Assembly (NCBI GenBank): GCA_947494435.1
Contig: CANLUY010000001.1
Location: 248,001 to 312,000, forward strand
Direction: 5' to 3'
Source of the DNA: an uncultured Litoreibacter sp.
Lineage (GTDB): Bacteria > Pseudomonadota > Alphaproteobacteria > Rhodobacterales > Rhodobacteraceae
Length of the DNA: 64,000 bases
The position numbers and the translations under genes were made by a program. A model generated the notes under the pieces. The model searched no databases and was not told where the DNA came from. It saw only the letters and a list, made by a program, of their open reading frames with translations. Of the stretch, positions 26,280 to 32,384 are shown one piece after another. Each line of letters begins with the position of its first letter. The first letter of the stretch is position 1.

Positions 26280-26314
26280 TGTGATCACTGAATTTTCACA
26301 CGTGATCACAAATG
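26280..26314 (-). promoter_or_regulatory. Paired GTGATCAC palindromes upstream of sdhC
   Basis: GTGATCAC occurs at 26281-26288 and 26302-26309, with centres 21 bp apart (two helical turns), 125-155 bp upstream of sdhC. The second is part of CGTGATCACAAATG, found identically upstream of sucC (32371-32384). The distal site overlaps the last codon of the DUF1194 gene. It is a likely operator pair; the candidate regulator is the GntR protein at 42565-43230. Confidence 0.65.
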
Positions 26315-27001
26315 ATCGCTTCCACGGCTGAGATTTTCAAAAGACAGCTGTTTTGTGATCTCGCGCAACAGCTTACGCCGGATTCGGTCCGGGTAGTCTT
26401 GAAAGGTCTCAGCACGCACCGCAAACGCACCCGGCCCGGTGATCAAATTCTGTTCGTAATAGTGGGTCAACGTATCGTCGGATTGCTCAATCGCTAACCC
26501 ATTTACGATTATCCCGTCGGCCGCCAGTTGCGCATGTACATCGCGCGGCGCAATCCCCTCATTGGATTGACCATCCCCAGAGACATCAATGACCTTTCGC
26601 TCACACTGCGTAACTTCGGAGAATGAGCCTTGAGCAAAGACCAGCGCCTCCCCTATTGCGGTTGAGAAATTTCGCCATACGCGTTGCGCGCCTTCAATTT
26701 CGGCCGCGAGCGCATCAACATCGTCGAAATCCTTTAAGGCCCGCCACGGGACGGAGACCCGCTGCCGTCCCTTTCCAGTCCACTGAATAAGCTGGACCTG
26801 CGCTTGCTTGACGACCAACGCTTCGGCAATAGCACCGTCGCGCAAGGCTTCCGCCAGACCTGACATTTGTATGCGGTACTCACGCGCATCGACAGACCCA
26901 GACATATCAACAGCTAGAATAAGGGCGAGCCCACACGCATATCCGGGTTGAGCCGCTAAAGCACAGACAACCGATAGCATTATGCGACGCACCCACCTCA
27001 T
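26306..27001 (-). CDS. DUF1194 (von Willebrand factor A-like) secreted protein
   Basis: A 231-residue protein with a signal peptide (RRIMLSVVCALAAQPGYACG) and a VWA-like domain. The metal-adhesion motif is DMSGS (about 31-35), with VIDVSGDGQSNEG as the later strand; this fits DUF1194, a family of unknown role. It is probably periplasmic. It lies upstream of sdhC on the same strand with 150 bp between, and its stop codon overlaps the distal GTGATCAC site of the sdh promoter. Confidence 0.82.
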   Translation of the reverse strand: MRWVRRIMLSVVCALAAQPGYACGLALILAVDMSGSVDAREYRIQMSGLAEALRDGAIAEALVVKQAQVQLIQWTGKGRQRVSVPWRALKDFDDVDALAAEIEGAQRVWRNFSTAIGEALVFAQGSFSEVTQCERKVIDVSGDGQSNEGIAPRDVHAQLAADGIIVNGLAIEQSDDTLTHYYEQNLITGPGAFAVRAETFQDYPDRIRRKLLREITKQLSFENLSRGSDHL

Positions 27002-27051
27002 GACAGCACCGTAGCGCGTGTCTCAAGAAATGGCAGTCACATTTCCAAGAG

Positions 27052-28089
27052 TTAGGTTGGCATCAACGCCCAATAGTCGAGATCAAGCAAAACGCCGGGA
27101 AGATACTTGCCGTCATCGCCCTTGAGAGAGAACATTTCTGCCTCGGCTTTCTGCGCAACCAGACGCAACCTGATTGCACCGATCCTAGGTGTAGCGGTCT
27201 CAGCTGTCTCAAGAACTTCAGACCACGCCCGGATCGTGTCACCTGACAAGCACGGATTTGCATGTGCCCCGCCGTTCAGACCCACGATCATCTGCGCATT
27301 TGCCAAACCGTTGAAGCTCAACGCTCGCGCCATGGAGATCACATGGCCGCCGTAAATCAACCGGCTGCCGTCTTCGCGAACAGTGGCGTCGAAATGAACT
27401 TTGGCCGTGTTCTGCCACAAGCGCGTGGCAAGCATGTGCTCCGCCTCTTCAATGGTGACACCGTCCACGTGGTCGATCTTTTCGCCGACTGTATAGTCGC
27501 CAAGCCTGTGCGGTTCGCCTGCATGCGTGAAGTTATACCCGTCAAAAGACAGCCCTTCTGGAATGACCAACTCATCGGCGGCAACAGCGGACGCAAGCGT
27601 CGGAACCACTGTGTCTGGGGCCGGCGCATCAACATCGCGCTTTCGCACCATCACCCAGCGCACATAGCTGAGCACCTCGTCACCAAGTTGGTTCTCGCCC
27701 GTTGTGCGCACCCATACCACACCCGTTTTGCCATTGGAATTCTGCTTGAGACCGATCACTTCCGACCGAGACAGAAGCGTGTCCCCCAGATGAACGGGCT
27801 TGAGGAAACGCCCCTCTGCGTAGCCCAGATTGGCCACGGCATTGAGGGAGATATCAGGAACGGTTTTTCCAAAGACCGTGTGAAAGCCAATCAGGTCATC
27901 CAGTGGCGCTTCGTGCAGGCCGCAATCGCGTGCAAACTCGTCAGAGGAATACATCGCGTGGCGCGCCGGATAGAGCGCATGATAAAGCGCACGTTCGCCA
28001 CCTGACAACGTGCGGGGTACGCCATGGTGGATCACTTGGCCAATTGAATAATCTTCAAAGAACCGGCCGGTATTTGTCTTCGTCGCCAT
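27052..28089 (-). CDS. mch: Mesaconyl-CoA hydratase (beta-methylmalyl-CoA dehydratase)
   Basis: A 345-residue double-hotdog MaoC-like hydratase interconverting mesaconyl-C1-CoA and beta-methylmalyl-CoA in the ethylmalonyl-CoA pathway. Typical stretches are GRFFEDYSIGQVIHHGVPRTLSGGERALYHALYPARHAMYSSDEFA and, in the second half, GGHVISMARALSFNGLANA. ATG 28089 has AGGGG upstream and overlaps the stop of the DUF1737 gene (TAATG). It shares an operon with the malyl-CoA thioesterase of the same pathway. Confidence 0.92.
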   Translation of the reverse strand: MATKTNTGRFFEDYSIGQVIHHGVPRTLSGGERALYHALYPARHAMYSSDEFARDCGLHEAPLDDLIGFHTVFGKTVPDISLNAVANLGYAEGRFLKPVHLGDTLLSRSEVIGLKQNSNGKTGVVWVRTTGENQLGDEVLSYVRWVMVRKRDVDAPAPDTVVPTLASAVAADELVIPEGLSFDGYNFTHAGEPHRLGDYTVGEKIDHVDGVTIEEAEHMLATRLWQNTAKVHFDATVREDGSRLIYGGHVISMARALSFNGLANAQMIVGLNGGAHANPCLSGDTIRAWSEVLETAETATPRIGAIRLRLVAQKAEAEMFSLKGDDGKYLPGVLLDLDYWALMPT

Positions 28090-28292
28090 TAATGCGCCCC
28101 TAATTTTGTATCCGGAGTGTAGGTCCCTTCGACCTCTTTCACGACAGATTGACCACAGCGCATAACTTGCGCCTCGTGATCCCACGTTTGTGTGGGTGAG
28201 CCGTAAAGCTCCCAGCCTTTATTCAACGCATCTGTAACCTTGTGGCAAAAGGCGGATGTGTCTTCTTCGCTGAGGAACCGGTAAAGTTTCAT
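28089..28292 (-). CDS. DUF1737 family small protein
   Basis: A 67-residue protein starting MKLYRFLSEEDTSAFCHKV, with KGWELYGSP and VMRCGQSVVKEV, a close fit to DUF1737. The family is common in Rhodobacterales and of unknown function. It is cytoplasmic by composition. It lies one base after the nnrU stop and its own stop overlaps the mch start, so it is translated with mesaconyl-CoA hydratase. Two cysteines (FCHK and RCGQ) are conserved in relatives I recall. Confidence 0.82.
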   Translation of the reverse strand: MKLYRFLSEEDTSAFCHKVTDALNKGWELYGSPTQTWDHEAQVMRCGQSVVKEVEGTYTPDTKLGAH

Positions 28293-28293
28293 A

Positions 28294-31116: not shown

Positions 31117-31281
31117 GGTCCCGACCTAGGTGAAAAAGCATCTGTTTTACAACGCGGATTTGGCACAAACCTTAGCCGCAGAGGCGCACAAGCCCCACTT
31201 TCTGCAACGCGGCACCCTTGCACGACACAATCCAACACGGTACGCCTCCGCCCAACTTTAACCGACTGGAGACCATTTCTG

Positions 31282-32244
31282 ATGGCCAGACCCAAAATCG
31301 CCCTTATCGGCGCAGGACAAATCGGCGGCACGCTCGCACACTTGGCAGCCCTGAAAGAACTCGGCGACGTTGTTCTTTTCGACATTGCAGACGGTACGCC
31401 TCAGGGCAAATCGCTCGATATAGCCGAGGCAGGCCCAGCAGCGCCTTTTGACGCGGCAATGAAAGGCACCACGGATTACGCGGATATCGCAGGCGCCGAT
31501 GTCTGCATCGTCACCGCTGGTGTACCTCGTAAGCCAGGCATGAGCCGCGACGATCTTTTGGGCATCAACCTCAAAGTTATGAAATCCGTTGGCGAAGGCA
31601 TTCGCGACAATGCCCCCAATGCTTTTGTGATCTGCATCACCAACCCGCTTGACGCGATGGTTTGGGCGCTCCGTGAGTTCTCAGGTCTGCCCCATAACAT
31701 GGTGTGCGGGATGGCTGGTGTGCTGGACAGCGCGCGGTTCCGTCACTTCCTCGCCGAAGAATTTGACGTCTCTATGAAGGACGTCACCGCATTTGTTCTG
31801 GGTGGCCATGGCGATACAATGGTGCCATTGACCCGCTACTCGACTGTTGCCGGTATTCCATTGCCGGACCTCGTTGAGATGGGCTGGACCAGCCAAGAGA
31901 AGCTTGACGCAATCGTCCAGCGGACACGTGACGGCGGCGCAGAGATCGTGGGCCTTCTTGGCAACGGCTCAGCATTCTACGCCCCAGCAACGTCTGCCAT
32001 CCAGATGGCTGAAAGCTTCCTGAAAGACCAAAAACGCGTACTGCCATGTGCAGCTTATGTTGATGGTGCCTACGGGCTTGATGGCTTCTATGTCGGTGTC
32101 CCGACTGTGATTGGCGAAGGCGGCGTCGAACGCGTCGTTGCAATCAACATGAACAAGGACGAGCAAGCCATGTTCGACAAATCTGTTGATGCCGTCAAAG
32201 GTCTCGTAAAAGCATGCCAAGATATCGACGGCTCGCTGGCCTAA
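31282..32244 (+). CDS. mdh: Malate dehydrogenase (NAD, LDH-like type)
   Basis: A 320-residue malate dehydrogenase closing the TCA cycle from malate to oxaloacetate. It has the NAD motif [13 protein letters not shown], substrate arginines in [14 protein letters not shown] and [10 protein letters not shown]...LDSARFR, and the catalytic histidine in [11 protein letters not shown] (about 176). ATG 31282 starts [10 protein letters not shown]. It has its own terminator at 32266-32290, so the following suc operon has a separate promoter. Confidence 0.96.
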
Positions 32245-32265
32245 ACCATCTTGCATTTTATCTGG

Positions 32266-32294
32266 AGGGGCCCTGCGATGCGGGGCCCTTCTTC
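32266..32294 (+). terminator. Intrinsic terminator of mdh
   Basis: AGGGGCCCTGC (32266-32276) pairs with GCGGGGCCCTT (32280-32290), with two G-T pairs and a GAT loop, followed by a T-rich stretch. It lies 21 bp after the mdh stop. Confidence 0.8.
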
Positions 32295-32346
32295 ACTTCT
32301 GCTTCATATTTCTTAGAAAATTTTAAAGATTCGTTTAATTCGAACT

Positions 32347-32384
32347 ATTTGTGATCACACTATTTTCCGCCGTGATCACAAATG
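32347..32384 (+). promoter_or_regulatory. Paired TGTGATCACA-type palindromes upstream of sucC
   Basis: TGTGATCACA (32350-32359, perfect palindrome) and CGTGATCACA (32371-32380) have centres 21 bp apart, as at sdhC. The 14-mer CGTGATCACAAATG (32371-32384) is identical at 26301-26314. The pair sits 98-128 bp before the sucC start and after the mdh terminator, where a suc promoter is expected. The same palindrome lies at the gntR start (43239-43248). Confidence 0.7.

Follow-up and report, generated by a model that had tools for sequence, protein, structure and literature searches.

In a 64,000-nucleotide stretch of DNA from an uncultured Litoreibacter sp. of the family Rhodobacteraceae (assembly GCA_947494435.1, contig CANLUY010000001.1, positions 248,001 to 312,000; hereafter the window), the leftward sdhCDAB operon and the rightward suc operon of the tricarboxylic acid (TCA) cycle are each preceded by two copies of an 8-letter palindrome, GTGATCAC. 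Judging from the sequence comparisons reported here, it is very likely that both pairs are operators of AkgR, a regulator of the GntR family, whose dimers would be stacked along one side of the helix at a distance of two turns and activate the sdhC and sucC operons in phase. The two predicted operator pairs are the following:

26281..26309, minus strand: sdhCDAB pair, GTGATCAC-N13-GTGATCAC, exact match, 125 bp before the sdhC start
32351..32379, plus strand: suc pair, GTGATCAC-N13-GTGATCAC, exact match, 98 bp before the sucC start

The palindrome occupies 26281-26288 and 26302-26309 before sdhC, and 32351-32358 and 32372-32379 before sucC, with a centre-to-centre distance of 21 bp in both pairs. 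The 14-mer CGTGATCACAAATG is found at 26301-26314 and again at 32371-32384. These positions, the 21-bp distances and the shared 14-mer had been proposed in an initial annotation made from the letters of the window alone, and all were recovered. The 14-mer covers the word farther from the gene at sdhC but the nearer word at sucC, which is no contradiction, because the outer flanks of the pairs are roughly symmetric, being T-rich before and A-rich after the words, a feature that is pronounced at sucC and weaker at sdhC. Among the pairs located in relatives (see below), T occupied the three bases before the distal word in 68, 57 and 86% of 69 sdhC pairs and in 75, 75 and 98% of 88 sucC pairs, and A occupied the three bases after the proximal word in 85, 68 and 55% and in 98, 89 and 92%, respectively.

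GTGATCAC was present ten times in the window against 1.21 expected, the maximum of 100 shuffles being four. The exact N13 pair was found at these two places only, upstream of sdhC and sucC, both in the window, where three further places matched with two to three mismatches, and in the whole source genome (3,893,140 bases in 12 contigs); the statement of the initial annotation that no other pair has this spacing thus holds for the window and for the genome. Eight further genome places matched the pair with two mismatches, and none matched the same pattern read backwards, which served as the control throughout. The initial annotation had also regarded solitary copies of GTGATCAC as chance occurrences in coding regions, and this fails for the copy at 43240-43247, which is intergenic and separated by 9 bp from the start of a GntR-family gene. 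This lone intergenic copy is the clue to the identity of the regulator.

We counted pairs of GTGATCAC with spacers of 0–30 bases in 295 Rhodobacteraceae genomes representing 294 genera. At least one pair was present in 267 genomes (541 pairs in total), and in 488 of the 541 the spacer was 12 or 13 bases (N12/N13). Such N12/N13 pairs were present in 265 genomes, with two in 209 genomes, one in 49, three in 7 and none in 30. The backwards control matched a single family genome in one search and none in a second. In a class-wide sample of 289 genomes, six matched, namely all four family members and 2 of the 285 others, and the backwards control matched one genome (G367, at five places). One of the two pairs from outside the family lies inside a coding frame (locus L209). 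The other (L208 in G440, from another family) is an N13 pair that precedes a different GntR/FCD-like gene, and this relative may control itself via the same pair. An order-wide sample matched in 287 of 292 genomes, where all matches listed belonged to the same family, and nothing was learnt from it beyond the family.

Gene assignment covered 184 distinct pairs among the loci listed, two of them from outside the family. This is a non-random sample: the loci came partly from genomes picked for extra or unusual pairs, and unusual pairs are therefore over-represented. Of the 167 distinct N12/N13 pairs, 69 precede sdhC, 88 precede sucC and 2 precede sucA; the rest stand before fumC (one), before the GntR gene outside the family (one) or elsewhere (six, L209 and L267 among them). 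The 17 pairs with other spacings were assigned to sdhC in one case and to no target in 16. The initial annotation had staked its proposal on conservation of the spaced pair upstream of sdhC and sucC orthologues. The search of the genome and of relatives bore this out, with the pair conserved before these genes in most sampled family genomes and 157 of the 167 located pairs preceding one or the other.

Some less usual arrangements were also seen. The third N13 pair of genome G042 (L163) is the one that precedes fumC, a class II fumarate hydratase gene by its NCBIfam name and thus another TCA gene, and an N13 pair in G774 (L267) precedes a formyl-CoA transferase-like gene. The 2.6-Mb genome G265 contains ten GTGATCAC pairs with spacers of 0–30, two of these with a spacer of 12–13. 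Three genomes (G135, G285 and G191; L302, L227/L236 and L241) carry triple GTGATCAC words in a 21-bp register.

The gene next to the lone intergenic word encodes the candidate regulator:

42565..43230, minus strand: candidate regulator of 221 amino acids with GntR and FCD domains (Pfam), beyond lpd
43239..43248, minus strand: single word TGTGATCACA, 8 bp before the regulator gene start; its core GTGATCAC, at 43240-43247, is 9 bp before the start

Pfam detected GntR (5.6e-13) and FCD (1.4e-19) in this 221-residue protein. The source genome has 11 FCD matches, each examined with about 1.5 kb on either side, and GTGATCAC was found within the locus at this gene only. Among named relatives of the regulator (the best 80 of 416), 66 carry GTGATCAC in the 150 bp that precede the gene; in 35 of these the distance to the aligned start is 8 or 9 bp. 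The upstream word is kept also where the neighbourhood of the regulator gene showed no suc gene. The single word is probably a self-control site. Taking as presence a match to the window protein at an expect value (E) of 1e-40 or below, the regulator was found in 270 of the 295 family genomes; 5 of the 25 genomes without such a match were identified by elimination. Regulator gene and N12/N13 pair occurred together in 260 genomes, the gene only in 10, the pair only in 5 and neither in 20 (Fisher p 2.5e-19); with spacers of 0–30, the corresponding counts were 262, 8, 5 and 20. The usual metal-binding positions of FCD domains are N, H, H and D in the window regulator, each kept in at least 95% of the 80 relatives, and an altered effector site is possible.

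TGTGATCACA occurs at 11 places in the source genome (backwards control, one), and a wider regulon built on such lone sites was considered and rejected, given that only those at suc, at akgR and perhaps at contig C5:10350 look intergenic (10 of the 11 contexts, judged by eye).

Genome G051 is presumably that of Rhodobacter sphaeroides 2.4.1: it gave 100% identity over 163 amino acids to the malyl-CoA lyase chain of Protein Data Bank (PDB) entry 4l9y, an R. sphaeroides protein, the next best being 94% among the matches listed. Only one protein of G051 matches the window regulator at E ≤ 1e-40; it is 78% identical and encoded 0.76 kb past sdhB. In this genome mdh-sucCDAB-lpd lies close to sdhCDAB, and N13 pairs precede the same two genes as in the window, at distances of 142 bp (sdhC) and 106 bp (sucC). 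PMC4344238 gives sdh of R. sphaeroides as RSP_0974-6, and 0.76 kb past sdhB is therefore about the expected place of RSP_0981. According to the same source, RSP_0981 is a GntR protein predicted to regulate succinyl-CoA synthetase (sucCD), succinate dehydrogenase (sdh) and alpha-ketoglutarate dehydrogenase (kgd), and GTGATCAC is among the AkgR binding sites according to PMC6365646. The available parts of three other texts (PMC5343134, PMC11323563 and PMC7471390) yielded nothing further on AkgR. The GntR/FCD protein of the window is thus likely an orthologue of RSP_0981 (AkgR), and AkgR is most likely the regulator of both pairs. The arrangement in the window differs from that of G051 in that akgR lies beyond lpd and not sdhB, and in that it has its own GTGATCAC, which akgR of G051 is without. 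The link between GTGATCAC and AkgR (PMC6365646) and the predicted targets (PMC4344238) come from these publications; the sites, their conservation, spacing and gene specificity, the co-occurrence with the regulator, the word before akgR and the mostly fixed distance to the block described below were computed here. The idea in the initial annotation that one regulator serves both TCA operons is supported by the conservation of the pair before sdhC and sucC and by a candidate regulator in the window that carries the same word.

Between each pair and its gene, conservation revealed a promoter-like block:

26194..26221, minus strand: promoter-like block before sdhC, from conservation; GTGAC (coding strand) at 26217-26221, 59 bp after the pair
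32415..32446, plus strand: weak promoter-like block before sucC, from conservation; offset from the pair 35 bp, score 6.57 (cut-off 6)

The sdhC block reads CGTGACW, an A-rich stretch and then GNTANNAA, and scored above the cut-off in 59 of 69 regions (shuffled sequences, 18 of 1380). It starts 57–60 bp after the pair in 52 of these 59, while across all 59 the distance to the start codon ranges from 56 to 111. The seven exceptions start 15, 47, 69, 71, 78, 79 and 80 bp after the pair. The sucC block is different (CGTTT ... TGTGC) and scored above the cut-off in 60 of 88 regions (shuffled, 85 of 1760), lying 42–45 bp after the pair in 50 of the 60 and at 24, 33, 33, 34, 34, 34, 35, 65, 65 and 66 bp in the other ten. 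In the window, the sucC block is about one helical turn closer to the pair than in most relatives. The order pair, block, gene, found in these 59 sdhC and 60 sucC regions, would place the predicted starts downstream of the pair; starts upstream of it are what the initial annotation had named as speaking against an operator of this kind.

Relative to the main positions of 58.5 (sdhC) and 44.5 (sucC), most exceptions are displaced by close to a whole number of 10.5-bp turns, with a mean phase cosine of 0.76 for sdhC and 0.93 for sucC. Under uniform placement, Monte Carlo simulation gave 0.0015 for sdhC and 0 of 100,000 for sucC. With each offset counted once, and the sdhC exception at 15 bp removed, the values were 0.0018 and 0.00002, respectively. 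For sdhC the test with all seven exceptions is preferred; the exception at 15 bp scores 15.7, higher than the one at 71 bp (15.0). The 21-bp spacing, its minor 20-bp form, the triple words in register and the near-whole-turn shifts fit the notion of two dimers on one face that the initial annotation had put forward, and suggest proteins stacked on one face of the DNA in a fixed phase with RNA polymerase.

The mechanism that we favour would run as follows. One AkgR dimer would bind each GTGATCAC word, and two dimers, or one dimer of dimers or tetramer, would cooperate along one face of the helix, with two turns between them. From its position upstream of the sdhC and sucC promoters, AkgR would activate both operons by a promoter contact that depends on helical phase. 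The single word beside the akgR start probably lets AkgR damp its own synthesis; this lone word suits self-repression because it adjoins the start codon. A more demanding version, in which AkgR acts as a two-turn DNA ruler, a dimer of dimers that tolerates no other arrangement than GTGATCAC words 20–21 bp apart at the activated TCA promoters, with a lone word at its own gene only, and promoters shifted by about -20, -10, 0, +10 or +20 bp, is offered tentatively, and we hold it with slightly more doubt than belief.

The alternative closest to this mechanism is that AkgR, once bound to the pairs, acts as a repressor of both operons, either obstructing RNA polymerase or building a complex that covers an upstream element. 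Many GntR proteins are repressors, and the single site just before akgR is positioned as a repressor site would be. Repression of the two operons is nevertheless unlikely, since the pair lies upstream of the promoter-like block at a distance that is mostly held or shifted by about whole turns, which is the behaviour of an activator, and since AkgR is reported to activate TCA genes directly. On the other side, PMC7797058 describes a repressor, Atu1419, which is a GntR/FCD protein whose structure with DNA is known. It is more improbable still that the pairs are bound by a regulator other than AkgR, be it one of the 10 other FCD proteins, CceR or a member of another family. The source genome does have 11 FCD matches, and PMC4344238 counts CceR (RSP_1663) and NtrC among the further predicted regulators of sdh in R. 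sphaeroides; however, only the akgR locus among the 11 contains GTGATCAC, the word precedes akgR in 66 of the 80 relatives, and akgR co-occurs with the pair (co-occurrence having been computed for akgR alone among the FCD proteins). CceR was also searched for by its own pattern and set aside as the binder, there being no match to [AGT]GTTN6-8AAC[ACT] in the scanned upstream stretches of sdhC, sucC, mdh and akgR.

We give hardly any credence to the words not being operators at all but GATC methylation or restriction sites, RNA hairpins or a chance repeat. GTGATCAC does contain GATC, and it is in excess in the window (10 against 1.21). Against this stand the spacer of 12–13 in 488 of 541 pairs, mostly at two operons, the low backwards controls (0 in the source genome, 1 and 0 of 295 in the family, 1 of 289 in the class sample) and the class sample itself, which matched in all four family members and in 2 of the 285 remaining genomes. 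The genome-wide and family-wide searches with their backwards controls rule out a chance repeat, and the constrained spacing and location led us to reject a methylation or restriction word. A role in RNA is opposed by the position of the pairs, 98–125 bp before the genes and upstream of the promoter-like blocks.

Several observations weigh against AkgR as the phased activator of both operons. Five family genomes contain a pair without a strong regulator match (G019, G096, G114, G256 and G264), with completeness of 77% in G096 and G264 and of 91–100% in G019, G114 and G256, while ten contain the regulator without an N12/N13 pair. A single N12/N13 pair is all that 49 family genomes have. No GTGATCAC precedes the regulator gene in 14 of the 80 named relatives, nor in G051, where no copy beyond the two pairs was found within the 50 kb read. 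As for the blocks, 10 of 69 sdhC and 28 of 88 sucC regions fall below the cut-off, and the sequences scored with the block models had also served to train them. The phasing at sdhC depends somewhat on its parameters: a reference of 59 instead of 58.5 lowers the mean cosine to 0.68, periods of 11 and 10.5 fit equally well, and a period of 10 gives 0.49. The phasing p-values treat genomes as independent, yet these genomes are kin, and the numbers are indicative only.

The genes around the pairs were assigned from the reading frame and the NCBIfam name, and for sdhC and sucC also from orthologues:

25772..26155, minus strand: sdhC, first gene of sdhCDAB
25387-25758, minus strand: sdhD
23563-25371, minus strand: sdhA
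21843-22622, minus strand: sdhB
32478..33671, plus strand: sucC, first gene after the suc pair
34787-35668, plus strand: sucD
35722-38727, plus strand: sucA
38731-40272, plus strand: sucB
41070-42458, plus strand: lpd

The sucC gene of the window apparently starts with TTG at 32478, while most of 44 relatives have ATG (first base A in 90%, G in 6% and T in 2%). Between sucC and sucD, at 33677-34777, there is a frame of 366 residues with a signal-like start. Elsewhere in the window, at 7536-9009, an autoinducer synthase gene adjoins a LuxR-type regulator gene.

Parts of this arrangement have precedents in other GntR systems. The window regulator gave a weak sequence match (E 6.8e-05) to structure 6z74, that of Atu1419. 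According to PMC7797058, Atu1419 of Agrobacterium fabrum is a tetrameric GntR/FCD protein (VanR), each dimer of which can hold a 10-bp palindrome. It resembles the window protein in its FCD domain, found there by Pfam, and in the short palindrome bound by one dimer, and differs in that it represses a catabolic pathway and in that its palindromes are 109–190 bp apart, against 21 bp in the window, for which loops in the DNA have been proposed and, at 190 bp, observed under the microscope. BusR of Streptococcus agalactiae, also of the GntR family, has two sites 22 bp apart on one DNA face, with the spacing required for binding, according to PMC8517857. BusR and the window system have in common a GntR DNA-binding domain and two spaced sites, at a distance that in the latter is nearly fixed across genomes. 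Unlike the window protein, in which Pfam finds GntR and FCD only and no RCK_C, and whose operator would consist of two complete palindromes, BusR combines an RCK_C effector domain with a coiled-coil ruler, and represses. Neither label applies to AkgR as a whole, and both proteins are precedents for parts of it. The regulator, the word and the targets are already in print for R. sphaeroides, and the advance made here is architectural, with no new system. We found no description of the fixed two-turn pair and its phasing in the literature searched, which the primary AkgR paper lay beyond, and we do not claim that they are undescribed. What the window contains is a known type of regulator-operator system in a well-conserved form, its architecture being sharper than in that literature.

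For roseobacters and their relatives, these data put a name to a candidate switch that would control part of the Krebs cycle, and its operator is easily recognised and occurs in the majority of the family's genera sampled. In the near-whole-turn shifts, nature has in effect varied the orientation of an upstream activator towards RNA polymerase. If the ruler reading is true, the face-of-helix contact would be so strict that, family-wide, promoters have shifted in evolution by whole turns and hardly otherwise.

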